Notes under the pieces: generated by a model
Database searches by the model: none
Told to the model about the DNA's origin: nothing
Seen by the model: the letters and a program-made list of their open reading frames with translations, nothing else
In this document: positions 33,808 through 53,003 of the stretch, in pieces
Layout of the letters: each line of letters begins with the position of its first letter
Numbering within the stretch: the stretch's first letter is position 1
Position numbers and translations under genes: made by a program
Assembly (NCBI RefSeq): GCF_004339595.1
Contig: NZ_SMFU01000007.1
Coordinates: forward strand, 928,658-992,657
From: Marinobacterium mangrovicola
GTDB lineage: Bacteria > Pseudomonadota > Gammaproteobacteria > Pseudomonadales > Balneatricaceae
Length of the DNA stretch: 64,000 nucleotides
Direction: 5' to 3'

Positions 33808-34153
33808 ATGAGCATGCGCTTCGGCTCGCTGACTTCCGTTAAAAAGTTGGCCCAGGATTATGCTGGTTTTTGGGGAGTTGCGTGCATTGAAAGGGCGCAT
33901 CGTCCACGCCTTAAAAGCGGGTTGATGTTGCTGCGCCAGAAGATTATCGCCTTTTACTTGATCGACCCAGACCATTCTCTGCTTTTAATAGGCACAAGGA
34001 CTGAGTGGCAAAGATGCTGCATAAAAAAATCTGGTGCTAACATAAGATAGAATAGATTTTATTGTTTTATGGCACTGCCCGAGCGACATCAGATTTCACA
34101 GGGTACTGCACGGCGCAAGGCCAGAATTCTGCAGCTCCCTCAAAGGTAGCCCA
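33808..34153. other. Intergenic region before the LysR gene
   Basis: 346 bp with no convincing gene. A frame of 80 codons at 33808 starts inside the terminator T-run and lacks family features. An AT-rich stretch near 34035-34070 probably holds the LysR promoter. Confidence 0.5.
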
Positions 34154-36774: not shown

Positions 36775-37191
36775 TTATTCCTGATCGGGTATAACGGCGA
36801 TGACATCGATCTCCATCAGCCATTCCGCCTGCGCAAGGCCGGCGACAACGAGCCCGGTAGAGATCGGGAACACTCCCTTCAGCCATTTGCCCACTTCACG
36901 GTATACCGGCTCACGGAAGCGCGGATCGGTGATGTAGGTAGTGGTCTTAACGATATGGGACATATCGGAACCCGCCTCTTCAAGCAGCTGCTTGACGTTC
37001 TTCATCGCCTGCTCGGCCTGAGCACGGGGGTCGCCAAGGCCCACCAGGTTCCCTTCAAAATCGGTACCGACCTGACCACGGACATAGACCGTATTGCCGG
37101 CTTTAACCGCCTGGCAGAGATCGTTGTCCAGCGTCTGGTTGGGGTAGGTTTCCTTGGTGTTGAACATGCGGATTCGTGTATGTGTGGGCAT
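36775..37191 (-). CDS. RidA/YjgF/YER057c-family protein lacking the deaminase Arg
   Basis: A 138-residue Rid-fold protein (VKAGNTVYVRGQVGTDFEGNLVG, DPRAQAEQAMKNVKQLLEEAGS, IVKTTTYITDPRFREPVYREV). Canonical RidA hydrolyses reactive imines using an Arg in a P-x-R-S segment near the C-terminus; here that segment reads FPISTGLVV, with Ser at the Arg position, so it belongs with the Rid subgroups that lack this residue and whose chemistry differs. The ATG at 37191 is 9 nt from an AGGAG site; two upstream ATGs are in frame. Downstream is the DUF1028 gene; upstream, after a stem-loop, is the flavin monooxygenase gene. Confidence 0.85.
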   Translation of the reverse strand: MPTHTRIRMFNTKETYPNQTLDNDLCQAVKAGNTVYVRGQVGTDFEGNLVGLGDPRAQAEQAMKNVKQLLEEAGSDMSHIVKTTTYITDPRFREPVYREVGKWLKGVFPISTGLVVAGLAQAEWLMEIDVIAVIPDQE

Positions 37192-38557: not shown

Positions 38558-38680
38558 CTCTGCATCCTGTATTGCTATTCGGGCCTTCAAGGAAAGGGCG
38601 GTTCAGTGATGCGGGCCCGACGCCAAAGGCTGGTCAAGGCTGCTTACTGAGTAGGGTTCAAGCCTAGGAGATCGCTTTGG

Positions 38681-38707
38681 ATTGTTAAAATATTATTAAT
38701 TTAACAA
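38681..38707 (+). promoter_or_regulatory. Shared AT-rich operator, copy A, inside a perfect dyad
   Basis: ATTGTTAAAATATTATTAAT at 38681-38700 is identical at all 20 positions to the copy at 52561. Here it also forms a dyad of TTGTTAAA (38682-38689) with TTTAACAA (38700-38707). 124 bp upstream of the monooxygenase start. Confidence 0.6.
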
Positions 38708-39018
38708 CAGCATTAAAAAAACGAATTCAGCGGGCGCGGGCAACGAGAGTGCAAACGGCATGGCGATAATCAGCGGGTGGGCCAGGGACAGAATCGGCGT
38801 TCTGAGCGTTATCAGGCATAGGGAATGTTCGGTTAGAAGTGTTCAGCCTTGAGCGAAGCTGTTAGATGCTCAACCTGCGTCCTTTTAGGTCGAGTGTCTT
38901 ATATGCGGTGATGCTTCTTATAAACGCGGCCGGTTATGAGTTGGGCCACCTTTAAGTATGCAGTGAAGCGTTAACATAAGTCCGAGAGTAGCTTTAGTAA
39001 AACCTATGCAGTTCGAAG

Positions 39019-39038
39019 ATTTATAGTATTTTACAAAT
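39019..39038 (-). promoter_or_regulatory. Shared AT-rich operator, copy D
   Basis: On the minus strand ATTTGTAAAATACTATAAAT agrees at 16 of 20 positions with copy A. It is 109 bp before the aspartase ATG on the opposite strand, so its orientation relative to the gene is the same as for copies A-C. Confidence 0.45.
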
Positions 39039-39146
39039 AATTGAGCAGTTTTTAGGCTGGGTCGCATTATCGATCAAGCCGTGTTCCGAGACTGAGTCCG
39101 CGGCTTGAAGCGGTCCGATCCGATCCCTCATCGCCCCGGAATAAAA

Positions 39147-41003
39147 ATGAACGCCAATAACAAAAAAGCCATCAAGACCGTTCTGCAATGCGACTCCCTG
39201 CCTGATACCGAATTCAGCAACCTGCTGATGTTCTGCCGGCTGACCACGGTGCAACAGGGCGGGCGCTTCGATCTGGCCGCTCATCCCGATCAACTGGTGC
39301 TGCTGCTGGATGGCGAATGCCAGTACGACCTTGAGGGGCTGACCGTCGACTTCACGGCACCGGTGGCCTGTAGCGCACTGGAATCGCTGTATGGCTCTGT
39401 TGAAGCCAGGGGCACGCTGATCGCCAAGGGACCGGTACAGCTGCTCACCATTGAGCTGGCCCGTCTGCGCGCCTGGCTGGCACAGGCGGAACTGAACGGC
39501 ACCCTGATGCTGCCGTTGATGAAGCTGGCCACCTCACGCAGTGAGGCGGTGGCCGAAGCCAAGCGGCCCGACAACCTGCGCCGTGAAAAGGATCTGCTGG
39601 GTGAGATGGATGTACCCCAGCAGGCGTATTACGGCGTGCAGACGCTGCGTGCGATGCATAACTTTGCCATCACCGATATTCAGCTGCGCCATTTCCCCAA
39701 ACTGGTGATAGCACTCGCCATGGTGAAAAAGGCCGCGGCACGGGCCAACTGCAAGCTGGGCCTGCTCGATGATCGTCGCGCCAATGCGATCAGCGAAGCC
39801 TGCGACGAGATCATCGCCGGCAAATGGCACGATCACTTTATGGTGGACGTGATCCAGGGCGGCGCGGGTACCTCCACCAACATGAACGCCAACGAGGTGA
39901 TCGCGAACCGGGCGCTGGAGCTGATGGGCTACGCCAAGGGCGACTATCACCAGCTGCACCCCAATAACCACGTGAACCTTTCGCAGTCCACCAACGATGT
40001 TTACCCCACGGCGATTCGCCTGGGCATCCTGCTGAGTCACGATGAATACGTGAAGGCGCTGTCCGGGCTCTGCTACGAGCTAAAACAGAAAGCGGTGGAG
40101 TTTTCCGATGTGGTGAAAATGGGCCGCACCCAGTTGCAGGACGCCGTGCCGATCACCCTGGGGCAGGAGTTCGACGCCTGGTACGTGACGCAGAAAGAGG
40201 ATATAGAGGAAGCCAAGGATGTACTGGAGTACTTCCGCGAGATCAACCTGGGTGCCACCGCCATCGGCACCGGTATCAACAGTGACCCGGAATACTCCAG
40301 CCTCGCCATTGAGGAACTCTCCCATATCTCCGGCAAGGAGCTGGTGCGCGCCCGCAACCTGATCGAAGCCACCTCTGATATGGGAGCGTTCGTTACCTTC
40401 TCCAGCGTGCTGAAGCGCAATGCGGTGAAGCTCTCCAAGATGTGTAATGACCTGCGCCTGCTCTCCAGCGGGCCGCGGGCGGGGCTGCAGGAGATCAACC
40501 TGCCGCCGATGCAGCCCGGCAGCTCCATCATGCCCGGCAAGGTCAACCCGGTGATCCCGGAGATGGTGAACCAGGTGGCGTTCCAGATTATAGGCAACGA
40601 TATCACCGTCACCCTGGCCGCCGAGGCCGGTCAGCTGCAGCTGAACGTGATGGAGCCGGTGCTGGCGTTTAACGTGCTGCAGTCGCTGCGGTTGCAGATT
40701 CGCGCCATCAACACGCTGTCCGCCAAATGTATTCGTGGCATCACCGCTAACCGGGAGCGTTGCCTGGACCTGGTAAACAACAGTATCGGCATTATCACCG
40801 CACTCAACCCCTATATTGGCTACGATAATGCCAGTCGTATCGCAAAACAGGCGGTGACCAACGGTGAGAGTGTGCGTGACCTGGTACTGGCGGAGGGGCT
40901 GCTCAGCGAAGCAGAGTTGAACGAAGTGCTCAGTATCGATGCGATGACGGCACCCCGACGTATGCGCAAACAGGCGCAAACCGAACTACTCACCAATAAG
41001 TAA
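39147..41003 (+). CDS. aspA: Aspartate ammonia-lyase with N-terminal cyclic-nucleotide-binding-like domain
   Basis: Aspartase releases ammonia from L-aspartate to give fumarate. The catalytic part begins near residue 147 (REKDLLGEMDVPQQAYYGVQTLRAMHNF) and contains the HPNNHVNLSQSTNDVYPTAIRLG substrate-binding region, GRTQLQDAVPITLGQEF and the mobile-loop signature GSSIMPGKVNPVIPEM with its catalytic Ser. Ahead of it are about 145 extra residues that ordinary aspartases (about 470 residues) lack. They have the small beta-barrel look of a CRP/cNMP-binding domain (LTTVQQGGRFDLAAHPDQLVLLLDGECQYDL...) and suggest allosteric control. The ATG at 39147 is preferred over a TTG at 39105. The aldehyde dehydrogenase gene follows 34 bp later, in the same operon. 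Confidence 0.9.
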   Translation: MNANNKKAIKTVLQCDSLPDTEFSNLLMFCRLTTVQQGGRFDLAAHPDQLVLLLDGECQYDLEGLTVDFTAPVACSALESLYGSVEARGTLIAKGPVQLLTIELARLRAWLAQAELNGTLMLPLMKLATSRSEAVAEAKRPDNLRREKDLLGEMDVPQQAYYGVQTLRAMHNFAITDIQLRHFPKLVIALAMVKKAAARANCKLGLLDDRRANAISEACDEIIAGKWHDHFMVDVIQGGAGTSTNMNANEVIANRALELMGYAKGDYHQLHPNNHVNLSQSTNDVYPTAIRLGILLSHDEYVKALSGLCYELKQKAVEFSDVVKMGRTQLQDAVPITLGQEFDAWYVTQKEDIEEAKDVLEYFREINLGATAIGTGINSDPEYSSLAIEELSHISGKELVRARNLIEATSDMGAFVTFSSVLKRNAVKLSKMCNDLRLLSSGPRAGLQEINLPPMQPGSSIMPGKVNPVIPEMVNQVAFQIIGNDITVTLAAEAGQLQLNVMEPVLAFNVLQSLRLQIRAINTLSAKCIRGITANRERCLDLVNNSIGIITALNPYIGYDNASRIAKQAVTNGESVRDLVLAEGLLSEAELNEVLSIDAMTAPRRMRKQAQTELLTNK

Positions 41004-41037
41004 CGCCGTCTAACGCGGTAGCCAATGGAGGATAAAG

Positions 41038-42522
41038 ATGACTGTACAGACCAAAGAGTACTGGCTCTCTAAACAACAGCAGATCGAGCTGAAGACTCAG
41101 GCTTTCATAGACGGCGCCTTTGTCAACGCCAGCAACTGCGATACCTACGACACCATCAACCCAGCCAGCGGCGAGCTGCTGGCCAAGACCGCCGCCTGCA
41201 GCAGTGCTGATGTGGACAGCGCGGTAGAATCTGCCCGCCGTGCGTTCAATTCCGGCGAATGGTCCGAAGCGGCTCCGGCCCACCGCAAGGCGGTGATCAA
41301 GAAGCTGGCCGCGCTGATCATGGAAAACCTGGAAGAGCTGGCGCTGCTGGAAAGCCTGAACGTAGGCAAGCCGGTGCAGGATACCCTGAACCTGGATATT
41401 CCCGGTTCCGCCGCCTGCTTCGAATGGTACGCCGAAGCGATCGACAAGCTCTACGGCGAAGTGGCTCCCACCGATGGCAACAACATCGCCACCATCACCC
41501 GCGAGCCGATCGGCGTTGTCGCCGCGATCATCCCCTGGAACTTCCCGCTGGATATCGCCGCCTGGAAACTGGCGCCGGCCCTGATCGCGGGTAACTCTGT
41601 AATCCTCAAGCCCGCCGAACAGTCACCGCTGACCGCGCTGCGTTTGGCTGAGCTGGCTAAAGAGGCGGGTCTGCCGGATGGCGTACTCAACGTGGTTACC
41701 GGCTACGGGGAAGTGGTGGGCAAGGCGCTGGGCCTGCATAACGACATCGACTGCCTGACCTTCACCGGCTCTACCGGCGTCGCCAAGCTGCTGATGGGCT
41801 ACTCCGCTGAATCCAACATGAAGCCGGTATGGCCGGAAACCGGCGGCAAGAGCCCCAACCTGATCTTCGCCGACTGCAACCTGGATGCCGCAGTGGAACA
41901 CGCCGCCATGGGTATCTTCTTTAACCAGGGCGAAGTCTGCTCCGCCAACTCCCGTATCCTGGTGGAGAGCAGCATCAAGGATCAGTTTATCGACAAGCTG
42001 ATTACCAAGGCGCGCTCGATGAAGGTCGGCGATCCGCTGGAGCCCGATACCCAGGTGGGCGCGCTGATTGACAGCAACCATGCCCGCCGCGTACGCAGCT
42101 TTATCACAAAGGCCGAAGAGCAGGGCGGCAAGGTGCTGACCGGCGGTGTCGGCGATGAGTCCACCAACTACGTGGCGCCCACCATCGTCGACGGCGTTAC
42201 CCCGGATATGACCATCGCCCGTGATGAGGTGTTCGGCCCGGTGGTCGCGGTGATTACCTTTGAAAGCGATGAAGAAGCGGTGGCGATCGCCAACGACTCG
42301 ATCTACGGCCTGGCGGCATCGGTTTGGACCGAGAGCCTGAACCGCGCTCACCGCGTAGCGCGTAAACTCAAGGCCGGTACCGTATCGGTGAACACCATGG
42401 ATGCGTTGGACTTCAGCACACCGTTCGGTGGCTACAAGCAGTCCGGCTTTGGCCGTGACCTGTCGCTGCATGCGCTGGATAAGTTCACCCAGCTGAAGAC
42501 CACCTGGATCAAACTCGGTTGA
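41038..42522 (+). CDS. NAD(P)-dependent aldehyde dehydrogenase, PuuC-like
   Basis: A 494-residue ALDH. NAD-binding region GVVAAIIPWNFPLDIAAWKLAPALIAGNSVILKPAEQSP, general base Glu in WPETGGKSPN and catalytic Cys in FNQGEVCSANSR are all present, and the C-terminal FGGYKQSGFGRDLSLHALDKFTQLKTTW is complete. End-to-end similarity is to PuuC-type dehydrogenases that oxidise gamma-glutamyl-gamma-aminobutyraldehyde and other aminoaldehydes. GGAGG ribosome site. Located after aspartase; with the class III aminotransferase at 48185 it could convert an amino-aldehyde to an amino acid. The exact substrate is inferred only at the level of class. Confidence 0.92.
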   Translation: MTVQTKEYWLSKQQQIELKTQAFIDGAFVNASNCDTYDTINPASGELLAKTAACSSADVDSAVESARRAFNSGEWSEAAPAHRKAVIKKLAALIMENLEELALLESLNVGKPVQDTLNLDIPGSAACFEWYAEAIDKLYGEVAPTDGNNIATITREPIGVVAAIIPWNFPLDIAAWKLAPALIAGNSVILKPAEQSPLTALRLAELAKEAGLPDGVLNVVTGYGEVVGKALGLHNDIDCLTFTGSTGVAKLLMGYSAESNMKPVWPETGGKSPNLIFADCNLDAAVEHAAMGIFFNQGEVCSANSRILVESSIKDQFIDKLITKARSMKVGDPLEPDTQVGALIDSNHARRVRSFITKAEEQGGKVLTGGVGDESTNYVAPTIVDGVTPDMTIARDEVFGPVVAVITFESDEEAVAIANDSIYGLAASVWTESLNRAHRVARKLKAGTVSVNTMDALDFSTPFGGYKQSGFGRDLSLHALDKFTQLKTTWIKLG

Positions 42523-42929
42523 TGCTCCCTACAAGGGAGCTGAGGTAGACCAGCAACGAATACTGGGATTACCTTCATCCGCTTCCTTTTCGTGGCCGGT
42601 TTCGGCTGCTGCCGAGCAAAGGGGCTGTACGCCTTTCGTTACTAAGTAAGCCCCTTTGCAATCCCAAACCGCCCCGATGGCTTGGTCGGCTACGCCGACT
42701 ACCCTGTGCTTCTTGTCTGAAAGAGCGGGACAGGAAACTCGCGCCTGCGGCGCTCAAACAGCCTGTCCCTTGTCTCTATTTCAGCCTGCGATGCTCGGCT
42801 GCGCCAAAGGGGATTGATTGCTGCGCTCAGGCATTCATGAAACATCGAGCCCTGTTATTAATAAGGCACGAGAAAGACATAGCTATTTTCCATTTCCTCT
42901 ACCCCGTGCCATTTTACTGGCCCTGCCGG
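42523..42929. other. Structured intergenic block with several stem-loops
   Basis: 407 bp without a convincing gene. It begins with a small hairpin GCTCCCT/AGGGAGC after the dehydrogenase stop, then holds a perfect 11-bp pair GCAAAGGGGCT (42616-42626) / AGCCCCTTTGC (42649-42659), a hairpin GTCGGC-TAC-GCCGAC (42685-42699), and a pair GGGACAGG (42727-42734) / CCTGTCCC (42762-42769) enclosing GCGCC-TGC-GGCGC (42741-42753). Such density suggests a dispersed structured repeat or an RNA; a 60-codon minus-strand frame across it has low-complexity Arg/Ser content and looks spurious. Confidence 0.5.
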
Positions 42930-43535
42930 TTAAAACGGCCACCACCAGTGTGAGGTGCCCAGGCTATCCCGGCAGCCGCGTAGCTGTTCGCCATACGTGC
43001 GGGCGTTGCCATCAACCTTTCTGGCGACCCGGACCAACCATCCCTTGCTGTTGTAGCTTTTACGCTTCCAGCCGCCGTGACCTTCGTGATACGCCAGATA
43101 CTGGTTGTAGGCGTCCCACTTGGAGATGCCCAGCGTCCGCTGGGATACGTTGGCATACCAGCCCATAAAGTCCACCGCGTCATCGTAGTCATCACGGTCC
43201 GCGCCCCAGTTACCGGTCGCATCCTTGTACCAATCCCAGGTGCCATCTTTTACCTGCGCATAGCCATAGGCGCTGGATACACGCCACCACATGGGGATAC
43301 CGAGGAAGGTATCTCTTGGCGGGGCAGCATCATGCTTAAAGCTGGATTCCTGCCGCATAATCGCCAGCTGCACCTGGATCGGCAATCCCCATTTCTCTTC
43401 AACATCCTTGGATGCATCGAACCAGTCGGGCTTTTCACGAAAAATCCTGCAGGCATTTTCCACGTTGGAAGGCGGAGTCGTCGCACAGGACGCGAGCAGA
43501 AGGGATGAGGCCAGGAGTAACAAACTTTTACGCAT
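42930..43535 (-). CDS. Lytic-transglycosylase-like lipoprotein (SLT domain)
   Basis: A 201-residue predicted lipoprotein: lipobox LLLASC at residues 12-17, then a single SLT-like lysozyme-fold domain with the catalytic Glu in LAIMRQESSFKHDA and the later motifs SSAYGYAQVKDGTWDWYK and AYHEGHGGW. Such enzymes cleave peptidoglycan glycan strands from the outer membrane side. The protein is shorter than MltC/Slt family members. Its stop lies at the end of the structured block; upstream begins the AT-rich cassette region. Confidence 0.85.
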   Translation of the reverse strand: MRKSLLLLASSLLLASCATTPPSNVENACRIFREKPDWFDASKDVEEKWGLPIQVQLAIMRQESSFKHDAAPPRDTFLGIPMWWRVSSAYGYAQVKDGTWDWYKDATGNWGADRDDYDDAVDFMGWYANVSQRTLGISKWDAYNQYLAYHEGHGGWKRKSYNSKGWLVRVARKVDGNARTYGEQLRGCRDSLGTSHWWWPF

Positions 43536-44179
43536 ACGCAGATCGGAAGCCAGGTTAAAAGGGTGGTGGGTTGAGCTCGCTTTAGGAAATAAAAACCAAT
43601 CATCTCATACTTTTAGAGCTTTCGGCGGATTCACCTGGGCTGATCGCCGGATCACATAAGTTTTAACTGCTTCTCGGATACTAACGCGTATGTTGTGACC
43701 AGTTTCTGAAGCTGGCCAGTACCTTCCATTAGCGACTTAACATTAAGAAATGACTTGTATAACTTGTGCCTTTGCCCCAACCGTAGCAAACTGACTCCAA
43801 CGTCAGACAGGCAGTAGACGTATTACCACAGCCGTAAACGATCCAAAGGGACTGATGATGGATACGTACAGCTCTCCCATAGCTAGTTCAGCGACTCGAA
43901 AACTTCCCGACAGAGAACAGCTTTGGCCTGTATTGGGCCTATCACTTTTCGCAGAAACGTCAGTATCCCTTAAGTCGGCTCTTAAAGCTCGCGAATACCC
44001 TATGGCGTTTCGCCCTAAGGATGTGCTCGAAAATTCCTCTATGAACTCAGTATTTTACAAATATCCGATAGGTTAAGTCAGGGAATTAATAGGCATACCA
44101 TCTAATAATTATTATGGGGCCAACGGCCCCATTAACAGGCTGTTAGCTCGCAATCATCAATTTTTAGCTAAGAGGCAAT
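43536..44179. other. AT-rich region at the left edge of the cassette block
   Basis: 644 bp in which base composition shifts toward AT. It contains one doubtful small gene (43855-44076) and a perfect stem-loop ATGGGGCC-AAC-GGCCCCAT at 44114-44132, closely followed by a second dyad TAACAG-G-CTGTTA. No integrase, attI site or clear attC site was recognised here. Confidence 0.5.
43855..44076 (+). CDS. Doubtful small protein, 73 residues
   Basis: An open frame starting MMDTYSSPIASSATRKLPD and ending NSVFYKYPIG, preceded by AAAGGG and two tandem ATGs. No family, signal peptide or membrane segment is recognised, and composition gives little support. It lies in the AT-rich cassette region and could be a small cassette gene or chance. 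Confidence 0.25.
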   Translation: MMDTYSSPIASSATRKLPDREQLWPVLGLSLFAETSVSLKSALKAREYPMAFRPKDVLENSSMNSVFYKYPIG

Positions 44180-45013
44180 ATGAGAAAAGACATTCCTGCG
44201 CCTATAATCGCGGTTTTATCAGACAACTTATCTGCGCTCGAGACTCATGCAAGTCTCGATAACCTATTCTTATATGCTGATGCTCCAGGGGAGCCGCCTG
44301 AAGGTTCTAAGCCTGTTAAAGTTCAAGCGTGGCTAAGACGAATTAACAAAGAATCAGGCGAACCATTAAAAGTCCTTGGTAAGTTGATTGAAACGTATAT
44401 GGAGTTACCAAAGCAAGAAGAGGAAGAGGTCTTCCTGTGGGGAACTAACGTTACAAATCATAAAAAGGAGTTCAAAGAAAAGCTTGAGTCAATTCTTGCG
44501 CAGTGCAATCTAACTTACATTAATGGTGGTATTGTATCTGATGGTAGTTCAGCTCCAAGTCGCTCCTTGTCTGACTTAATTAAAGGTAGAGACATTCCCT
44601 CAATTGAAGCTGAATTTACAAGAGCGCTAGCAAATGTAAACTCTGAACCTAGAGAATCAGTGTCAGCAGCTTGCAACATTTTGGAATCCATATTTAAGGT
44701 CTATATTGCTGATGAGCAATTAGCACAACCTCAAAAGCAAGATCTACAAAACGTTTGGAAAGTTGTGCGTGGTGATTTAGGTTTCGATCCTAAACTAGTT
44801 CAAGATGATGACTTAAAAAGAGTTTTATCAGGCATTCTGTCAATTGTTGACGGTATTGGAGCGTTTCGCACACATGCCAGTTCAGCGCACGGTGAGGGTC
44901 GAATTATGTATAAATTAAAACCTCGTCATGCTCGTTTGGCAATTCACTCTGCGCATACAATAGCGATGTTTGTGCTTGAAACTTGGGACGAAAAACGTAA
45001 GTCAGCGAGCTAA
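44180..45013 (+). CDS. Abi_C-domain protein, candidate anti-phage abortive-infection gene
   Basis: A 277-residue protein with AGAGG before its ATG. The C-terminal part (about 165-270) matches the abortive-infection C-terminal domain: ESVSAACNILESIFKVYIADE, DLKRVLSGILSIVDGIGAFRTHASSAHGEGR and ARLAIHSAHTIAMFVLETW, including the R-x-x-x-(x)-AHG core typical of Abi_C/HEPN-like proteins. The N-terminal ~160 residues are not recognised. Proteins with this domain are linked to phage-triggered growth arrest, probably through RNA cleavage; that role is known for relatives, not shown here. AT-rich codon use sets it apart from chromosomal neighbours. Its TAA stop is the first base triplet of a VCR-like attC site, so it is the gene of an integron cassette. 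Confidence 0.8.
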   Translation: MRKDIPAPIIAVLSDNLSALETHASLDNLFLYADAPGEPPEGSKPVKVQAWLRRINKESGEPLKVLGKLIETYMELPKQEEEEVFLWGTNVTNHKKEFKEKLESILAQCNLTYINGGIVSDGSSAPSRSLSDLIKGRDIPSIEAEFTRALANVNSEPRESVSAACNILESIFKVYIADEQLAQPQKQDLQNVWKVVRGDLGFDPKLVQDDDLKRVLSGILSIVDGIGAFRTHASSAHGEGRIMYKLKPRHARLAIHSAHTIAMFVLETWDEKRKSAS

Positions 45014-45134
45014 CAAACAATTTAAGAGGGATTCCCAACGCTTGGCATTTTTGCTTCTACTTCAAGTTTAGTGTTTATGGCACAATGCGTTAGGTTTGGG
45101 TGGTAGCGTTGCTCACCCCTTAATTGGGCGTTAG
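45011..45134 (+). repeat. VCR-like integron attC recombination site
   Basis: About 124 bp with the hallmarks of the Vibrio cholerae repeat family. It starts TAACAAACAATTTAAGAGGG at the stop codon of the Abi gene, continues CCAACGCTTGGCATTTTT, has TTTAGTGTTTATGG in the middle and ends GCTCACCCCTTAATTGGG then CGTTAG. The two ends (TTTAAGAGGG and CCCCTTAA) are complementary, as needed for the folded bottom-strand substrate of integron integrase. Confidence 0.8.
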
Positions 45135-45171
45135 AACAATAAAGTATCCAACATAAAATATGCAGGAAAAT

Positions 45172-46029
45172 ATGGAAGTAGAGGAAAGAATAGAACGTAT
45201 TAGAAATGGGGCAGTAATTAAATGGCTGGAGGTCATGATTTGGTTTTGTTTATGCCTGTATCTTGGGGAAGGATTCTGGGGAGATCTGTACGATTTTATT
45301 GAACATATCGCCACAGAAAGAAGTGATTCATACAGGTACTTTACGAATATATTTGACAATAATCTTGAGGAAATGTTTTTCGCAATACTTAGCGCAATCT
45401 TTCCTATTCTTTACTTAAATATAAATGGCGTATTGCCAATAGCTGAAATTATCGCGAAGTTTGCTTCTATTGGAGAAGCAAAGAAATACGACTTCAACAG
45501 TGATTCTCTAAACTCCGAACAGTATCTTCAGTTACTAAGCGCAAAGAGTGAAAATATTGCTCTTGGAATGGAAAAGAAAGCGCGTATATATATGATCGTC
45601 GGAGTAACCTTTTCAGCCGCTGGCATTTTGGCTCTGATTCTTTCGTCAAGTTTAGGTGAAACAAAATTAGATATAACAGCCAGTTTGTTAGATACGTTAC
45701 CAAAACTTGGTGCTTTTGCTTTTGTGCAGGCAATAGCATTTTTCTTTCTGAAACAATATCGTGTTTCTATGGAAGAATTTCGATACTATGAGGCTATTAA
45801 AAGGAAGCAAGAGGAGAATATTCTATTTTATAAAACAGCTGCCGAGCACGAATGGCAAGATATATTGAAATTGTCGATTGCAAATGGGTCTATGTTTTCG
45901 TCAGGATTCACACTTGATTCAGGAAAAACCACTCAAGTTTTAGAGACAGATAAGCTAGAAACAAGTGACTACAAAATGCTTGAAAAAATCATAGGTGGTA
46001 TATTCGATAAAAATGCTGCTAACAAGTGA
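45172..46029 (+). CDS. Multi-pass membrane protein of unknown function (cassette gene)
   Basis: About 285 residues with an AT-rich gene. Hydrophobic spans are near residues 16-36 (WLEVMIWFCLCLYLGEGFWG), 68-84 (FFAILSAIFPILYLNI), 138-160 (ARIYMIVGVTFSAAGILALIL) and 180-196 (LGAFAFVQAIAFFFL), followed by a charged cytoplasmic-looking tail of about 85 residues. No family is recognised. AGGA four bases before the ATG at 45172 favours it over the ATG at 45160. The gene starts 38 bp after the VCR-like attC site and ends in a second attC-like element, so it sits alone in its cassette, in the same orientation as the Abi gene. Membrane proteins of this kind in cassettes are often defence effectors, but that is only a suggestion. 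Confidence 0.65.
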   Translation: MEVEERIERIRNGAVIKWLEVMIWFCLCLYLGEGFWGDLYDFIEHIATERSDSYRYFTNIFDNNLEEMFFAILSAIFPILYLNINGVLPIAEIIAKFASIGEAKKYDFNSDSLNSEQYLQLLSAKSENIALGMEKKARIYMIVGVTFSAAGILALILSSSLGETKLDITASLLDTLPKLGAFAFVQAIAFFFLKQYRVSMEEFRYYEAIKRKQEENILFYKTAAEHEWQDILKLSIANGSMFSSGFTLDSGKTTQVLETDKLETSDYKMLEKIIGGIFDKNAANK

Positions 46030-46100
46030 TTGTAGTCGCCCGCAAGCGGGCTGGGACCTCCGCTGCTACGCAGCACCAGGCCCTAAATTAGGCGTGAAAG
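46018..46100 (+). repeat. attC-like element, degenerate core
   Basis: Starts GCTAACAAG across the stop codon of the preceding gene and ends TTAGGCGTGAAAG, enclosing hairpins GCCCGC-AA-GCGGGC and GCTGC-TAC-GCAGC. Layout and ends resemble attC sites, but the 3' core reads GTGAAAG instead of GTTRRRY, so it may be inactive or misidentified. Confidence 0.4.
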
Positions 46101-46127
46101 CGTAATAATGGCATAAAGAGTAATAGT

Positions 46128-46916
46128 ATGAAAGATATAATCGATGCTGTTAGTTCTAGAATCAAAACACCATATTTTGGCTATGCTATTCTCGCATTTA
46201 TTGCACTTAATTGGCGTGGGATATTTCTTTTGGTAGTGACAAATGGCACACCGAATGAACGACTCAACGCGTTTGATAGTATGACTAGCTATAATACGCT
46301 CGTAGTCTGTCCTTTACTTGTTGGTGCTTTAGTTGCTGCATCCTCACATTGGGTTCAGTATTTATTCGGTATCATTTCACGTAAACCTTCAGGATTGATC
46401 GATAATCTATATCTTGAGGCGGAACATAAGAAAACTATCCGCGAGGCAGAGCTTGAGCAATCTCGCTCAGATCTCTTCGCTGTTAAAGAGAAGGAACTCA
46501 TCGAAAGGGCAAAGAGAGATGAAGAAGTAGCTGGTATTGAGGATGATGCTGCAAAAGAGCGGTTATCTGAACAAATCGAAAGCCTAAGAAGAGAGCGCGA
46601 TCAGCTTTCGGCCCAACTCGAAAACCAATCTTCTCGGAAAATTCCAACTATAAATAACCTTTCAAGTGAAGCTATAGAAATAATTAAGTCAGCTTCCCAA
46701 GATAAAAGCGGGAAAATCTTGAAGCCGCGAACAATCGGGGAGAGAAGTATTCAGGTCGGCAGACGCGCATTTGGTTCAGAAAATCCAAGAGATTTTGCGA
46801 GATATGATGCTGCACTTGAAGAACTTATTAGCGGGGATCTCGTAAAAGGGCTAGGGGGAAAAGGCGAGGTTTTTGAGTTAACGCATAAAGGGTGGCAAGT
46901 AGCAGATTCGCTTTAA
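46128..46916 (+). CDS. Membrane protein with coiled coil and winged-helix-like tail, unknown function
   Basis: A 262-residue product of an AT-rich gene. Two hydrophobic spans near residues 19-39 and 59-80 are followed by a long charged coiled coil (about 100-175: EAELEQSRSDLFAVKEKELIERAKRDEEVA...EQIESLRRERDQLSAQLEN). A C-terminal ~80-residue segment (NNLSSEAIEIIKSASQD...FARYDAALEELISGDLVKGLGGKGEVFELTHKGWQVAD) has the look of a winged-helix domain, because ALEELISGDLV...VFELTHKGW resembles MarR-like wing ends. No family is recognised. It is co-oriented with the two preceding cassette genes. The ribosome site is weak. Confidence 0.6.
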   Translation: MKDIIDAVSSRIKTPYFGYAILAFIALNWRGIFLLVVTNGTPNERLNAFDSMTSYNTLVVCPLLVGALVAASSHWVQYLFGIISRKPSGLIDNLYLEAEHKKTIREAELEQSRSDLFAVKEKELIERAKRDEEVAGIEDDAAKERLSEQIESLRRERDQLSAQLENQSSRKIPTINNLSSEAIEIIKSASQDKSGKILKPRTIGERSIQVGRRAFGSENPRDFARYDAALEELISGDLVKGLGGKGEVFELTHKGWQVADSL

Positions 46917-46975
46917 AAAAAAGTCATGAAATTGACCTCAATAAGCTACGCTTTTTTCGGCAATTTATAACGGCG

Positions 46976-47291
46976 TTAAATGCCGGTGATAGCCATGTCC
47001 AATGCCCCGACAATTTGGTCTCTGAAGTGCGATAGCGAGCCAACCGGTTTTTGAGGTGCTTTTCCGAAACAGAGGAAATTTGGGGCGTTAACAGTAGGAG
47101 TTCCTGGTCTGCAAAGCTGATTTCCGGCGTGATTCCTTGCATGGCTTCACTACCAAATGCGGAGCGTTTCCCTAAGGGGATGACGATGCGAGTTGCCAGT
47201 TCGCTCAGCAGGCTGCTTTGTATATAGACCAGGTAAGGAAGTGCGCTTTGCTGGTCTTGCTTGGGTTGGGGTATACATCGAACTGCGCCAT
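46976..47291 (-). pseudogene. ccdB: ccdB toxin, broken by two frameshifts
   Basis: The CcdB sequence can be pieced together across three frames. It starts MAQFDVYPNPSKTSKAHF from the ATG at 47291, continues in the next frame as PYLVYIQSSLLSELATRIVIPLGKR...ISFADQELLLLTPQISSV, and ends in the third frame as GSLSHFRDQIVGALDMAITGI with a TAA at 46976-46978. The first break is at about 47232-47241 (one base lost in CACTTCCTTACC), the second in an A-run near 47044-47050. Intact CcdB poisons DNA gyrase; this copy cannot make a full protein. Homopolymer sequencing errors could mimic one lesion, but the paired ccdA is broken too. Confidence 0.8.
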
Positions 47292-47535
47292 CGAAACTCC
47301 CTGAATTCGTCGCCGAAGCATCCATGTTCTTCGACAAAATCATTGTAACTCTTTATAGCGGCGCGGTTTTCTTCAATCCATTGTTCTGCCTGACGTTTTG
47401 ACAGTTCTGCCTTCAGCGCTCGTTCGAGGGTAGCAGACAGGTTAATGTTTAGTTCACGAGTTTTACGCAAAAGATCCCTATTGACCTAGAGGTTTGTCGC
47501 TTTTTTGGAGCATCTGCGTCGTAGAGTTCGGCCAT
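47291..47535 (-). pseudogene. ccdA: ccdA antitoxin, frameshift, nonsense and lost stop
   Basis: Reading from ATG at 47535 gives MAELYDADAPKK, then one base is missing in the run at 47501-47506. The correct frame then continues ATNL, TAG at 47486-47488 (Ser in relatives), VNRDLLRKTRELNINLSATLERALKAELSKRQAEQW...GCFGDEFREF. The final stop, expected as TGA overlapping the ccdB ATG, reads CGA. The length of 245 bases is one short of an intact 246-base gene. Chromosomal ccdAB modules are common in Vibrio superintegrons, which fits the attC neighbours, although this one is on the opposite strand to the other cassettes. Confidence 0.8.
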
Positions 47536-47601
47536 TCGAGCCTCCAAGTGGCTATTTAATGGATGGCTTTAATCTATGCGCATGCCGATGCGCACTCAAG
47601 G

Positions 47602-47672
47602 ATTTAACCAATAGCTGTTGTTGGGCGCACCTACGCTGGCGCTCCGGCACGCCGCAAAGCCAGGCGCTAAAT
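47602..47672 (+). repeat. Possible third attC site
   Basis: ATTTAAC (an exact RYYYAAC box) at 47602-47608 and CAGGCGCTAAAT ending at 47672 (GTTRRRY with one mismatch) bound a 71-bp GC-rich segment with internal pairing CTGGC/GCCAG. Size and polarity fit a typical attC. It would be the right end of the cassette block. Confidence 0.35.
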
Positions 47673-47897
47673 CTTCTCTTCATGAATAAAGCTGTTCAGG
47701 CTGTCGTAATCCCAGGGTTCGCCATCCGGTCGTAAATGGCCGTGCTCGTTCAGCTTGTCCACCATCACCTTCACGTTATCGCCTTTCTTGCGCAGCCCCT
47801 GGACGAAGTGCAGGGCTTCATCGTGTTTGGCTGTCACTGCCGGGTCTTCGGGGGCGTCGCTCTTATGCTTCACTTGAACCTTGATTGATTTGCTCAT
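47667..47897 (-). CDS. Small protein of unknown function, 76 residues
   Basis: Starts MSKSIKVQVKHKSDAPEDPAVTAKHDEALHF and ends DYDSLNSFIHEEKI; charged, soluble, no membrane segment. An AGGGAA ribosome site is 6 nt before the ATG at 47897, and GC content matches the chromosome rather than the cassettes. The C-terminal half (LRKKGDNVKVMVDKLNEHGHLRPDGEPWDYDSLNSFI) looks like a fragment related to recombinase-type helix-turn-helix text (VxxLNxxGxxxPxGxxW), but it is too short to call. Its stop codon lies inside the possible third attC site. Confidence 0.55.
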   Translation of the reverse strand: MSKSIKVQVKHKSDAPEDPAVTAKHDEALHFVQGLRKKGDNVKVMVDKLNEHGHLRPDGEPWDYDSLNSFIHEEKI

Positions 47898-48131
47898 GAA
47901 ATATTCCCTGTGTTGAGCCCGTGTTGAGCCTGAGTTGGATCTTAGATGTTTTTAGCATGGATCATTGGCCGTGAAAGTGCACTGGTGAAAACCGGCGGGT
48001 TTGGGCTTGTTGGTTGCTTCCATGCGTTGAATCAACTCGACGAATTGCGGAGCAGGGCGCAGCGGGCGTTCGAACGAGCGGGGGATCGCAGCGGGGGACG
48101 ACGTTCCCCCGAAAAGTTGATTAGCGGCAGA

Positions 48132-48161
48132 CAAAAAAAGAGGAGCCCGAAGGCTCCTCGA
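48132..48161 (-). terminator. Terminator after the aminotransferase gene
   Basis: Stem CGAGGAGCC / GGCTCCTC; on the minus strand it is followed by TTTTTTT. It lies 25 bp past the stop. Confidence 0.85.
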
Positions 48162-48184
48162 TAAGCGTCACTGACAGGGAGTGA

Positions 48185-49579
48185 TTAGATGAAGCCTTCG
48201 GCTTTCAGATCTTCCATGGTGGCCTCGATGCTTTCACGCAGGGTGGCAACCAGGAAGTCGATGTGTTCTTTGGTCAGGGTCAGTGGCGGAGACAGTACGT
48301 TCATGTGTGCCAGCGGACGTACGATCAGGCCGCGAGCCTGACAGTGGTCGGCGATGCGGTTACCGACCTTGGCATCCGGGTTGATCAGTTCCTTGGTCTC
48401 TTTGTTCGCTACGTTCTCGATGCACATCATGAACTTGCGACCGCGCACATCACCAACGATGGGCAGGTCGATCAGGGTTTTCACCTGGTCTTCGAAGTAC
48501 TGGCCCATATCCTTCACATGGCCGCAGAGGTTCTCGCGTTCCATGATCTCGATGTTCTTCACGCCGGCGGCACAGCTGACCGGGTGGCCGGAGTAGGTGA
48601 AGCCGTGGGTGAACAGGGCGCCGTCCGCCTGGGGCTTGCTGATGACGTCGTAGATCTCGTCAGACAGGATGGTCGCACCCAGCGGCAGGTAACCTGAGGT
48701 CAGGCCCTTGGCGCAGGTGATGATGTCCGGCACGATGCCGAACTCGGCTTCGGAGGCGAACATGTGGCCCAGACGACCGAAGGCGGTGACCACCTCGTCG
48801 GAGACGTAGAGCACGCCGTACTTGCGGCACACTTCCAGGGTCTTCTTGTGGTAGCCCTCGGGCGGCACGATTACGCCACCTGCACCCATGATCGGTTCGG
48901 CAAAGAACGCAGCCACGTTATCCGGGCCCAGTTCCAGGATCTTGTCTTCCAGCTCCTGCACTTTCTCGTTGCAGAACTCTTCCAGGCTCTGGCCGGCCGG
49001 ACGACGGTAGGGGTTCGGGCAGGAGATGTGGGATACCAGCTGCTCTTCGATATCGAAGCCGATGTGATCGAACTTCACGCCGGTGATCGACATCGCCATG
49101 TAGGTGCTGCCGTGGTAGCCGTCGATGCGTGAAATGATCTTCTTCTTGCTCTTCTTACCCAGCTGGTTGAAGTAGAAGTGGATGATCCGTACGGCGGTAT
49201 CGTTCGCCACGGAGCCACCGCAACCGTAGAACACGTGGTTCAGGTTGCCCGGCGCCAGCTCGGCCAGTTTGGCGGCAAGCTGCGCTGCAGGCACGGTGGT
49301 GTGGTGACCGAAGCAAGAGTAGTAGGGGATCTGACGGATCTGGTCTGCGATCGCCTGTGCCATCTCTTCACGGGCATAGCCGATGTTAACGCACCAAAGC
49401 CCACCGATGCCGTCCAGGTATTCGCGGCCTTCGCCATCTTTGACGTGTACGTTGTCACTGTCGGCAAGGACAAGCGAGCCTTCTTCTTTGAAGGTTGAAA
49501 AATCAGTCCAGGGATGGATGTAGTGGTCTCTGTCCTGCTGCCACACCTGCTGCATATCGGTTGTTTGCTTGTTGGGCAT
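48185..49579 (-). CDS. Class III omega-aminotransferase (PLP)
   Basis: A 464-residue fold-type I transaminase. The PLP-binding Lys is in ITCAKGLTSGYLPLGA, the cofactor-stacking region in SRIDGYHGSTYMAMSITG, and DEVVTAFGRLGHMFASE carries the conserved Asp for the pyridine nitrogen. The N-terminal HPWTDFSTFKEEGSLVLADSDNVHVKDGEGREYLDGIGGLWCVNIGYAR is typical of pyruvate-dependent amine transaminases (SpuC, taurine or beta-alanine types). It would turn an amine or diamine into an aldehyde that the PuuC-like dehydrogenase could oxidise. A related AT-rich operator lies 97 bp upstream (copy C). Stand-alone gene by its terminator; the APC permease lies upstream on the same strand. Confidence 0.92.
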   Translation of the reverse strand: MPNKQTTDMQQVWQQDRDHYIHPWTDFSTFKEEGSLVLADSDNVHVKDGEGREYLDGIGGLWCVNIGYAREEMAQAIADQIRQIPYYSCFGHHTTVPAAQLAAKLAELAPGNLNHVFYGCGGSVANDTAVRIIHFYFNQLGKKSKKKIISRIDGYHGSTYMAMSITGVKFDHIGFDIEEQLVSHISCPNPYRRPAGQSLEEFCNEKVQELEDKILELGPDNVAAFFAEPIMGAGGVIVPPEGYHKKTLEVCRKYGVLYVSDEVVTAFGRLGHMFASEAEFGIVPDIITCAKGLTSGYLPLGATILSDEIYDVISKPQADGALFTHGFTYSGHPVSCAAGVKNIEIMERENLCGHVKDMGQYFEDQVKTLIDLPIVGDVRGRKFMMCIENVANKETKELINPDAKVGNRIADHCQARGLIVRPLAHMNVLSPPLTLTKEHIDFLVATLRESIEATMEDLKAEGFI

Positions 49580-49675
49580 TTTCGAGAGTACTCCTGAATT
49601 TCGATTCCAGAACTTCTTATCCAGAATTTTTAATATTAGTTATTTGACCCCTACAACCTTATCCAGTGACGGGTT

Positions 49676-49695
49676 ATTGATAAAATATTATTTTT
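49676..49695 (+). promoter_or_regulatory. Shared AT-rich operator, copy C
   Basis: ATTGATAAAATATTATTTTT agrees at 17 of 20 positions with copies A and B. 97 bp upstream of the aminotransferase start and in the same relative orientation. Confidence 0.5.
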
Positions 49696-49742
49696 TACTG
49701 ATATAGATTAATAAAACTGATGCAGGCACGGCGCCCATAAAG

Positions 49743-49775
49743 AAGCCCCCGCAGTGTTAAGGCTGCGGGGGCTTT
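49743..49775 (-). terminator. Terminator after the APC permease gene
   Basis: AAGCCCCCGCAG-loop-CTGCGGGGGCTT, a strong stem flanked by T/A runs on both sides; it may work in both directions. Confidence 0.85.
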
Positions 49776-49801
49776 ATGTTGTGCTGAGCCTGGTTAAAAC
49801 G

Positions 49802-51223
49802 TTACTCGGCGTTTAGCGCCTTTTCGATCGGCTCGGCCTTGAACAGCGGCTTTTTCATAACGACTTTCACCCAGAAGATCGCAATCACCGAGACCACTGC
49901 CAGCACGATACCGGCGGCGCCAAAGATCTGGCCGCTCAGTTCCGGCGCCGGAGAGGCGTAGTAGATGGCGTAAACCATACCGGCGATACCGAAGATCTGC
50001 GGCAGCGGGTAGAACGGGGTTTTGTAAGGGCGCTTCAGGTCCGGGTAGCGCTTGCGCAGCACCATCACGTTGATATGGGTGATGATGTAGGCGATCAGCC
50101 AGGCGATAGCGGCAGAGATCAGCAGCAGGCCGATAGCATCCGGGTTGTCGCCCATAAAGATCATCGGCAGGCCGGTGATCGCGGCGACAAAGAGTACCGC
50201 TACCCAGGGAGTGTTGGTGCCGGGCAGGCACTTCTTCAGCTGCGGGAACGCCTGGCCATTCTGCGCCATGCCGTAAAGCATACGGGGGATGGCGGCCAGT
50301 GAGGTGTTCACGGTGCTGCAGGTGGCGGTGATCGCGGCCACAGCCAGGAAGATCAGCCCGGTATCGCCGAACACCGCTTTGGCAAAGTCATAATGCGGCA
50401 GCGGGGAAGAGGCGAGCTCGTCAGCCGGGATATAGAACAGTGCGCCCAGGCAGTAGATCGCAATGGTGACGAAGATAATGCTGACACCGATGATCATGGA
50501 GCGCGGAATATTACGCTCGGGGTTCTTGGCGTCTTCAACCAGCGGGCAGACGAACTCGGCGCCCACATAACCCCAGATAGCCAGCGCCACCAGTGAAATC
50601 ACACCGGCACCCAGCGGGTTCCAGTCGGCGGTCAGTTCGATACCGGCCGGATGTGGGTTAGCAAAACCGCCTACGGCGCTCAGGCCAAGCAGGAGCAGAA
50701 CCACCACCATGATGAACGCCAGCGCAGACTGCAGCTTGGCGAAGATATCGATGCCCATCAGGTTGAGCACGGTAAATACGCCGAGCAGGCCAAAGCCAAG
50801 GGTCATCGGCGGGAATACGCCCGGGTAGATCTTCTCGATGATGAAGTCGACCAGCAGTAGTTCAGCGGAGAGTGCGAACATGGCGACGACAACGTAGCCG
50901 GAGAATACCGCGAGGATAGCGGGGAAGTGACCGATGGACACCTCGGTGTAGCTGCTGAGGCTGCCGGCCCGGGGGATCATCAGCGACAGTTCAGAGAACG
51001 AGAACACGTAGGTAAGGGCGAGCAGGAAACCTATGGCGAGGGGGATGATAAAGCCGAGCCCGGCGATACCTGCACCCTGCAACATAAGGACCATTACACC
51101 CTGAGATACGACCAGGCCGACGGCAACCGCCAGCAATGAGCCTAGCCCGAGTATTTTGCTAAAACCTTTCTTGCTTTCCACCGTACAGGACGCGTCCGCC
51201 GTTAGCGTTTGGGATTCAGACAT
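49802..51223 (-). CDS. APC-superfamily amino acid/polyamine permease
   Basis: A 473-residue inner-membrane transporter with about 12 hydrophobic spans. The opening LGLGSLLAVAVGLVVSQGVMVLMLQGAGIAG has the unwound first helix typical of the APC fold, followed by GFLLALTYVFSFSELSLMIPRAGSLSSYTEVSIG (span 2 motif) and WGYVGAEFVCPLVEDAKNPERNIPRSMIIG (the span 6 motif GxE-NPxRxIPRA). The substrate is an amino acid or amine of unknown identity; position between the aminotransferase and the deacylase suggests it imports the pathway substrate. No copy of the shared AT-rich element was seen directly before it, so it may be expressed differently or by read-through from the deacylase gene. Confidence 0.9.
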   Translation of the reverse strand: MSESQTLTADASCTVESKKGFSKILGLGSLLAVAVGLVVSQGVMVLMLQGAGIAGLGFIIPLAIGFLLALTYVFSFSELSLMIPRAGSLSSYTEVSIGHFPAILAVFSGYVVVAMFALSAELLLVDFIIEKIYPGVFPPMTLGFGLLGVFTVLNLMGIDIFAKLQSALAFIMVVVLLLLGLSAVGGFANPHPAGIELTADWNPLGAGVISLVALAIWGYVGAEFVCPLVEDAKNPERNIPRSMIIGVSIIFVTIAIYCLGALFYIPADELASSPLPHYDFAKAVFGDTGLIFLAVAAITATCSTVNTSLAAIPRMLYGMAQNGQAFPQLKKCLPGTNTPWVAVLFVAAITGLPMIFMGDNPDAIGLLLISAAIAWLIAYIITHINVMVLRKRYPDLKRPYKTPFYPLPQIFGIAGMVYAIYYASPAPELSGQIFGAAGIVLAVVSVIAIFWVKVVMKKPLFKAEPIEKALNAE

Positions 51224-51289
51224 AGTTGTCTCCTGATTAGTTGTTCTAGTTTAACTTTCAGGTGAATGACAAACGCTTTGACCTGCGAG

Positions 51290-51313
51290 GGGATATAAGA
51301 CGAGTTATATCCC
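51290..51313. repeat. Perfect 9-bp inverted repeat between permease and deacylase genes
   Basis: GGGATATAA (51290-51298) and TTATATCCC (51305-51313) with a 6-bp spacer. A possible operator of the permease gene or a weak stem after the deacylase; no T-run. Confidence 0.45.
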
Positions 51314-51346
51314 GGTCGAAGACCGAAGCGTTTACCTTCCGGGTTG

Positions 51347-52504
51347 CTACGCCTTTAGCTGGCGTATGAGTCGATCCATAAAGAGCTCACAGCTTTGCAG
51401 TTGGCTCTTATGGATGAATTCGTCGGGCTTATGGCCCTGGTCCATGCTGCCGGGCCCGCAGACCACGGTGGGCACGCCCAGCACCTGGCTGAACAGGCCG
51501 CCTTCGGTGCCGAAGTTGATGCTGCCCCGTGTTTTTTCATCGGTCAGGCTTTGCACGAAGGAGACGACCTCTGCGTCATCGGCGGTGCTCAGGCCCGGAT
51601 ATTCGGTGGTGATATCGATGGCGATGTCGCAGCCGGCGTCGATCTGGCGCATCTCGCTAATAAGGCTGTCGGCATAGGCCTGGAACTCGGCCAGCATGGC
51701 GCGTGGATCGTCGCTGGCGATGTTTCTGATCTCGAACAGGAATGAGCACTGGTTGGGGACGATGTTCAGTGCTGTGCCGCCGTGCACGGTGCCGGTATGT
51801 ACTGTGCTGTAGGGGATGTCGTAGCCGTTTTCGAACGGGCCCTGATCGCCCTTTTTATGGGCCAGTTTTTCCAGCCAGGTGATCAGCCGTGCCGCATAGT
51901 TAACGGCGTTAACGCCCCAGGGGGCCATGCCGGAATGGCACTCTTTACCTTTCACGGTTACCCGGGCGGCCAGCTTGCCCTTGTGTGCGGTAACCACCCG
52001 CATCAGCGTAGGTTCGCCGATAATGCAGATGCCGGGTTTGAGAGGGTGTTGCTTCAGTGTATCGATCATGCGGCGCACTCCCACGCAGCCGATCTCTTCG
52101 TCATAGGAGAACGCAAGGTGGATCGGCGTATGCAGGTCCTGTTTAACTATCTCGGGGACCGCCGCCAGCACCACCGCGATAAAGCCTTTCATATCGCTGG
52201 TGCCGCGGCCGTAGTAGCGACCCTCTTCTTCAGTCAGTTCGTAGGGGGCTTTCTGCCAGTTCTGGCCGGTGACCGGAACGGTATCGGTATGGCCGGATAG
52301 CATCACGCCCGGTTTATCTTTCGGACCGAGAGTGGCGTACAGGTTGGCTTTTTTCTCCTCTTGATCGTAGATCAGCTGGCTTTCGACGCCGTATTCATTA
52401 AGAAACGTCTGGATGTAGCCCATCAACGCAAGGTTGGAGTTCGCGCTGGTGGTATCAAAGCCAATCAGGTTCCGAAGAACCTCAAGAGTTAATGCATTCG
52501 CCAT
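51347..52504 (-). CDS. M20-family metallodeacylase, ArgE-like
   Basis: A 385-residue cytoplasmic di-zinc amidohydrolase of the ArgE/DapE/ACY1 group. Metal and catalytic residues are visible in order: His in MLSGHTDTVPV, bridging Asp in GRGTSDMKGF, the catalytic Glu pair in SYDEEIGC, Glu in IIGEPTLM, the dimerisation-domain His in KECHSGMAPWGVNA, and the final His in GHKPDEFI. It resembles N-acetylornithine deacetylase, but a stand-alone copy in a catabolic region with its own operator points to an N-acyl amino compound other than acetylornithine. The 20-bp element 57 bp upstream is identical to that before the monooxygenase gene. Confidence 0.9.
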   Translation of the reverse strand: MANALTLEVLRNLIGFDTTSANSNLALMGYIQTFLNEYGVESQLIYDQEEKKANLYATLGPKDKPGVMLSGHTDTVPVTGQNWQKAPYELTEEEGRYYGRGTSDMKGFIAVVLAAVPEIVKQDLHTPIHLAFSYDEEIGCVGVRRMIDTLKQHPLKPGICIIGEPTLMRVVTAHKGKLAARVTVKGKECHSGMAPWGVNAVNYAARLITWLEKLAHKKGDQGPFENGYDIPYSTVHTGTVHGGTALNIVPNQCSFLFEIRNIASDDPRAMLAEFQAYADSLISEMRQIDAGCDIAIDITTEYPGLSTADDAEVVSFVQSLTDEKTRGSINFGTEGGLFSQVLGVPTVVCGPGSMDQGHKPDEFIHKSQLQSCELFMDRLIRQLKA

Positions 52505-53003
52505 GTAACTTCCCGAACTGAGTCTGTTAGGTCGAAACTCAGCATAGGGTTGGGCGTAACATTGTTAAAATATTATTAATCTCTCTCCTGCATTTGAAAA
52601 ACTTATATTAGACCTTTAGCTAACAGGTCTAGAAAGGCGTCGAAAACCGCCGATTACAACTCGCTGTAAGTGTTTAAGAGACAGGTGTGCAGCCCCTGTT
52701 TATGGGGCTTTATAGCCGCTGACGCTGAGCAGAATTTGCACTTCTGAACGCCGGGAAATGCTCTGGTGCTGAGTCGGGTGGTTCCCGGATCAACGTTTCC
52801 CTTTTGTCTCACGTTGGTTATTTGCGCCCGATCATTACTCGGCGGACCTTTGCAGGATCGTGCAACAAAGCGGCCGTAACGTGCTATGGCTGCTGGCTGC
52901 TCCTGGGGTAGCTTGGTTAAAGCGATAAGCCGAGCGTGTGGATTTTCTGCACATCGGAAGGATTTAACGCTTAACCGACTAATCTGACCAGGGAGGTTAG
53001 ACC
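52505..53003. other. Intergenic region between deacylase and Tat-ADH genes
   Basis: 499 bp. It contains the shared AT-rich element (52561-52580) and otherwise no feature I can support. A 124-codon minus-strand frame here is Arg-rich, overlaps the ADH start and has no family match. Confidence 0.5.
52561..52580 (+). promoter_or_regulatory. Shared AT-rich operator, copy B
   Basis: ATTGTTAAAATATTATTAAT, identical at 20 of 20 positions to copy A at 38681 although nearly 14 kb away. 57 bp upstream of the deacylase start. Confidence 0.6.

Follow-up and report, generated by a model that had tools for sequence, protein, structure and literature searches.

Gene content of the cluster

The window analysed here, a stretch of 64,000 nucleotides from Marinobacterium mangrovicola, carries a cluster in which genes of the hinF, L, H, G, I, D and A types occur together, as judged by protein families and gene order against published role lists (Table 1). 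A review describes the breakdown of histamine in Pseudomonas putida U with HinABCDFLHGIJK and three regulators for the histamine genes. The roles given in PMC6467879 are FAD-monooxygenase for HinF, enamine deaminase for HinL, amidases for HinH and HinG, aspartate ammonia-lyase for HinI, aldehyde dehydrogenase for HinD, permease for HinA and aminotransferase for HinC. Compared by family and role, the gene set of the window appears to fit these assignments. Ectoine and polyamine catabolism had been considered as the pathway and were set aside once the match of the LysR regulator pointed to HinK, polyamine-like substrates being kept as a rival reading; literature searches on DUF1028 and on this gene cluster returned no matching paper.

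The aminotransferase shares 38% identity with the enzyme of a Pseudomonas hin locus (L138), which has a better match in the M. mangrovicola genome (53%) on another contig. Judged by sequence comparison, the cluster enzyme is probably no orthologue of its Pseudomonas hin-locus counterpart. The N-terminal extension of the aspartase (39147-39570, about 140 residues before the aspartase match) is unmatched in one relative, G009, and is thus variable. A GC-rich inverted repeat with 10-bp arms (49745-49772), which a terminator scan did not list, separates the permease gene from the aminotransferase promoter. The repeat may be a terminator and, if so, would explain why the aminotransferase has a separate promoter.

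Table 1. Genes and promoter features of the cluster, in window coordinates
Feature	Position	Strand	Parts or basis of assignment
Partial module copy, LysR gene	34017..34088	+	good distal dyad 34018-34038; weak core; no -10 match; matrix rank 5
LysR-type regulator, HinK-like, proposed binder	34154..35083	+	sequence and structure-database comparison, neighbourhood
DUF1028 protein, hinH-like	36094..36765	-	by gene order
RidA-family protein, hinL-like	36775..37176	-	family, gene order
Flavin monooxygenase, hinF-like	37283..38557	-	family, gene order
Promoter module, flavin monooxygenase (hinF-like) operon	38659..38730	-	distal dyad 38709-38729; 20-mer 38681-38700; -35-like 38683-38688; -10-like 38661-38666
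Promoter module, aspartase-aldehyde dehydrogenase operon	38989..39060	+	weak distal dyad 38990-39010; element 39019-39038; -35-like 39031-39036; -10-like 39053-39058
Aspartate ammonia-lyase, hinI-like, ~140 extra N-terminal residues	39147..41003	+	family
Aldehyde dehydrogenase, hinD-like	41038..42522	+	family, published roles
Class III aminotransferase (PRK07036 type), in place of hinC	48185..49579	-	family
Promoter module, aminotransferase	49654..49725	-	distal dyad 49704-49724; element 49676-49695; poor -10-like 49656-49661 (TAAGGT)
APC-type permease, hinA-like	49802..51223	-	family
M20 amidohydrolase (annotated acetylornithine deacetylase), hinG-like	51347..52504	-	by gene order
Promoter module, M20 gene (M20-permease unit)	52539..52610	-	distal dyad 52589-52609; 20-mer 52561-52580; -35-like 52563-52568; -10-like 52541-52546

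A 20-bp element repeated before four units

A preliminary description of this DNA had reported a 20-bp element, ATTGTTAAAATATTATTAAT, which reads ATTAATAATATTTTAACAAT on the gene strand, and all of its copies were found as claimed: two exact ones before the monooxygenase and M20 genes, one of 17/20 (three mismatches) before the aminotransferase gene, and one of 16/20 on the opposite strand before the aspartase gene, the last seen by reading the sequence. The element ends 123 bp (monooxygenase), 56 bp (M20), 96 bp (aminotransferase) and 108 bp (aspartase) from the start codon, in line with the 57-124 bp first given, and its orientation relative to the gene is identical in all four cases. One hundred dinucleotide-shuffled windows held no match to the 20-mer at up to three mismatches, and the reversed 20-mer, as a control, had none in the whole genome (4.98 Mb, 15 contigs) at the same tolerance. 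The 20-mer itself had four matches there, three of them those already reported. The remaining one (L004), in AT-rich DNA flanked by a flippase-like ORF and a further ORF, is taken as chance.

A fixed-spacing promoter module in seven genomes

To find relatives, the M20 and flavin monooxygenase proteins were used as queries against 57 genomes, among them the own genome. The cluster is present in seven of these, from five genera: the own genome; G003, of the same genus, with proteins 98-99% identical; and G009, G014, G017, G027 and G028, from four other genera of the same family. All seven share nine genes, namely those for the monooxygenase, RidA, DUF1028, M20, permease, aminotransferase, aspartase, aldehyde dehydrogenase and LysR regulator, and in all seven the monooxygenase, M20, aminotransferase and aspartase genes are preceded by the module described below.

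Alignment of 24 promoters (four genes in each of six genomes, the near-twin G003 left out; ungapped, anchored on the core) places the 20-mer within a 72-bp module of fixed spacing, of which it is the most conserved piece and the -35-proximal part; it is no stand-alone operator. The module begins with a distal TGNAT-N11-ATNCA dyad, followed by an AT-rich element that merges with a -35-like hexamer; a -10 hexamer resembling TANNCT comes 16 nt later. An exact T-N11-A is found in 22/24 promoters, and pairing across the dyad peaks at 4.9 of 10 pairs; a shift by one base to either side lowers this to 1.2 and 1.6, and letter shuffles give 2.8. At the -35 place, 23/24 promoters have TTA and 9/24 have TTANCA; 16 nt after it, TANNCT stands in 20/24 and TANNNT in 23/24. 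The recurring dyad is distinct from the TTGTTAAA/TTTAACAA dyad that had been pointed out in the copy before the monooxygenase gene. The latter is indeed present there, with 8/8 pairs, and by eye also in G003, but it is not conserved across the 24 promoters, of which the remaining 23 show 1-6 of 8 pairs, and was rejected as the operator.

The spacing was examined with matrices built without the genome under test, the distal part being searched from -60 to +40 and the -10 part from -15 to +40 around the expected register. The best score fell at that register for the distal part in 23/24 promoters and for the -10 part in 22/24; the misses were the aminotransferase promoter of G017 (both parts), which also has the poorest element copy among the relatives, and that of the window (-10 part). 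Between different genes of one genome, identity is 0.57 in the distal part, 0.77 in the core and 0.55 in the -10 block, and falls to 0.26-0.27, the level of random DNA, in the flanks. The distance from core to start codon ranges from 61 to 480 bp across the promoters. Thus, its blocks keep together wherever they lie before the gene, behaviour more in keeping with a promoter than with a translation signal.

The recognition sites of LysR-type regulators usually lie near -65. With the transcription start presumed here, the distal dyad is centred at about -65. A strict sigma-70 consensus scan of 38550-39150 and 49590-49900 found no promoter, a result that would fit a weak, activator-dependent promoter and proves none.

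Confinement of the module to the cluster

A sequence-only profile (Infernal) built from 20 sites outside the own genus gave exactly four matches in the M. mangrovicola genome at E <=10, and these are the four promoters (150 of 465 first-look candidates scored). Under stricter filters and E <=0.01, the same profile matched all seven cluster-bearing genomes among the 57, with E-values down to 3.6e-15, and returned one weak match outside the cluster of G017. The other 50 genomes yielded five weak matches, in four of them (G015, G018, G039 and G044; E 7e-4 to 2.4e-3). Among the findings that the preliminary description had named as speaking against a shared regulon were occurrence of the element at many random genomic places and its loss before orthologous genes. 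Neither of these was observed: by both the 20-mer and the profile searches of the whole genome the element is not scattered, and it is kept upstream of the orthologues in the relatives.

Several further copies of the module were seen by matrix score in the relatives. In G017 one strong copy (50.6; L217 12506-12577) precedes a Pot-type ABC operon (upstream of 11350-12420, minus strand), whose binding protein resembles PotD/PotF and whose ATPase resembles PotA; this operon is a candidate histamine uptake system. Copies scoring 27.0 in G027 (L213 10142-10213) and 27.5 in G028 (L214 11980-12051) stand before porin genes related to the TorF-type porin of the window (35149-35835), which itself has no site among the best matrix matches listed. 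A weak copy (17.0) precedes a TRAP operon in G027.

Two other features of the relatives were noted. G003 has a second, Pseudomonas-like gene set at L072 (C19 1-9000; monooxygenase 64%, M20 49%, DUF1028 50% and LysR 37%), for which no matching module was found. In G014 an ORF of the histidinol dehydrogenase family adjoins the aldehyde dehydrogenase gene (L215 10562-11881), and similar ORFs lie near that gene in G028 (L214 9687-11030) and G027 (L213 7923-9245).

The LysR regulator and its own upstream site

The structures nearest to the LysR protein are 3fzv and 6m5f, at E about 6e-61, the next match being at 1e-25. These same chains are matched at 6e-179 by the LysR protein encoded next to hinF in Pseudomonas alcaligenes (L138). 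We take 6m5f to be HinK, its database entry naming only a probable transcriptional regulator. A HinK-type LysR gene thus lies in or near the cluster, at moderate identity: the protein is 37-40% identical to the three LysR proteins of Pseudomonas and Paraburkholderia hin loci with which it was compared, and it closely resembles the Pseudomonas hin-locus type in the helix-turn-helix and in an RHHAQG stretch. Orthologues of the regulator (58% identity or more) are found in the same seven genomes as the cluster. Among the other 50 genomes, with up to 40 candidates scored in each, a single LysR protein matched at E <=1e-45, with 36% identity, in G008.

The preliminary description had seen no copy of the element before the LysR gene. 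A weaker, partial copy of the module does exist there, 65 bp before the start codon. In a scan of about 128,000 window positions with a matrix of 20 sites from four other genera, it ranked fifth (score 23.6), behind the four known sites, while the top score in 20 block-shuffled windows was 9.8. Taken by parts, its distal section ranked 4th, its core 22nd and its -10 section 31,660th among window positions; by comparison, the distal part of the aspartase-operon module alone ranked only 22nd. The Infernal search of the own genome did not report this site. Among the relatives, with a matrix that included the window's LysR site, weak matches before the LysR gene scored 20.6 in G017 and 12.2 in G027, and the matrix scan gave no upstream site above 3 for the LysR genes of G009, G014 and G028. 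Self-regulation of the LysR gene, resting on this partial site, is plausible.

The module in 80 named loci

We also considered 80 named loci, the best 80 of at least 565 confirmed stretches. In 67 of these 80, mainly from Pseudomonas and Paraburkholderia, genes for the monooxygenase, RidA, DUF1028 and M20 proteins follow one another in this order, on one strand and within 7 kb, which is the order of hinF-L-H-G. The threshold for sites was set at 12, after the block-shuffled maximum of 9.8 (20 shuffles, closely related matrix). The motif carries over to hin loci at large only in part: a site above 12 precedes the monooxygenase gene in 42 of these best 80 loci and is lacking in the other 38; the profile, at E <=0.1, places one there in 39 of the 80. 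Sites above 12 also turn up elsewhere than before the monooxygenase gene, nine of them in 8 of the 80 loci, and the threshold is passed in two of 15 control loci as well (L073 16.1, L075 17.2), so that a cut-off of 12 admits chance or unexplained matches. Several loci of Paraburkholderia, Caballeronia, Trinickia and Burkholderia that were counted as site-free still show a dyad of the TGCAT-N11-ATGC type, and many site-free Pseudomonas loci have a different AT-rich sequence.

Discussion

The reading we favour, to which we assign a probability of roughly 0.78, is that the histamine (imidazoleacetate) operons share an activator-dependent module, that the 20-bp element forms its -35-proximal half, and that the HinK-like LysR protein encoded at 34154 is the binder. 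The regulon for a nitrogen compound proposed at the outset, with the linked LysR protein as its likely binder, is thereby supported and may be narrowed to a HinK-type histamine regulon. From what the sequences show (the module, how it is spaced and conserved, its restriction to the cluster and its occurrence together with the LysR gene), we infer the following working, which extends to binding, inducer, activation, transcription start and substrate. The LysR protein would hold the distal TGNAT-N11-ATNCA dyad, through the T-N11-A near -65. On binding an imidazole intermediate it would grip, or shift on, the proximal AT-rich stretch lying over the -35 hexamer, and RNA polymerase would thereby be recruited to a weak promoter. 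The permease, aminotransferase, aldehyde dehydrogenase, flavin monooxygenase, RidA, DUF1028, M20 and aspartase proteins would then be made together and convert histamine to fumarate, and the partial site before the LysR gene may allow the regulator to tune itself.

The general layout is familiar. Classical LysR-type promoters have a recognition site near -65 and an activation site near -35. The module resembles them in its distal T-N11-A dyad, its proximal element over the -35 hexamer and its constant spacing, but conservation is here higher in the proximal element than in the distal dyad (0.77 vs 0.57).

The closest known system is the HinK regulon of Pseudomonas, made up of hinDAC, hinFLHG and hinK, all of which, according to a review, HinK activates. 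The kinds of genes are alike, as are the helix-turn-helix and RHHAQG stretch of the regulator, and the module here precedes both a hinF-type unit (monooxygenase) and a hinD-type unit (aspartase-aldehyde dehydrogenase). The HinK box is given as T-N11-A (PMC10912698), as in the module, a likeness at the level of architecture; HinK is reported in the review and in PMC10912698 to respond to imidazole-4-acetate. Self-regulation is reported there, and the LysR gene here has a partial site. There are also differences: the LysR proteins share 37-40% identity, the aminotransferase is of another subgroup, and the aspartase belongs to the module-bearing set here. In addition, sites in M. mangrovicola are confined to the cluster, whereas the reported targets of HinK in P. 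aeruginosa include pvdS, pqsA and further genes (PMC10912698).

It is conceivable, though unlikely, that the module is LysR-activated as proposed and that the substrate is another amine, polyamine-like or another imidazole compound, rather than histamine. The different subgroup of the aminotransferase and the module before the PotD/PotF- and PotA-like ABC operon of G017 would both suit such a substrate. Yet the monooxygenase, RidA, DUF1028, M20, aspartase, aldehyde dehydrogenase and permease together fit the published histamine-to-fumarate route, and an added uptake system suits histamine too, since PA0222, a gene for a solute-binding protein, is described in a review as strongly histamine-induced in P. 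aeruginosa.

A binder other than the linked LysR protein, such as a global factor or an equivalent of HinB or HinJ, seems to us quite unlikely. In its favour, binding by the LysR protein is deduced here from sequence, three regulators of histamine genes are reported for P. putida U, and one further LysR-like ORF lies near the cluster of G028. Against this, the T-N11-A architecture recurs in 22/24 promoters, and the LysR gene lies in the cluster of all seven genomes, its orthologue being found only there among the 57. A global factor would moreover be expected to have sites elsewhere, and the own genome shows four. That the repeats are mere AT-rich promoter DNA or copies from a recent duplication, with no common regulator, is hardly credible and is ruled out as far as sequence allows: the core is 18/20 A/T, yet the genome holds only four matches, and three spaced blocks are kept, between genera too, amid unrelated flanks.

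Returning to the HinK-like regulon, we consider the cluster most likely to be the HinK-type histamine/imidazoleacetate regulon of this genus and a fairly ordinary further example of a known switch. In a broader context, it is tempting to speculate, tentatively and at less than even odds, that these genomes represent a HinK-type branch outside Pseudomonas. In such a branch the whole histamine-to-fumarate route, aspartase included, would be driven from one 72-bp module whose specificity lies mainly in the element overlapping the -35 hexamer. In some of its genomes the same module would also bring in uptake by a Pot-type ABC operon, a TRAP operon or a TorF-type porin, none of which has so far been connected with histamine.

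The analysis gives a likely function and a likely regulator to a cluster whose genes bear vague or misleading names (DUF1028, RidA, MSMEG_0569-like flavoprotein, 'acetylornithine deacetylase'). It also supplies a precise candidate operator with which other bacteria may be scanned for histamine users and for candidate transporters of the pathway. Finally, the set of natural promoters lets one ask directly which half of a LysR operator carries specificity.
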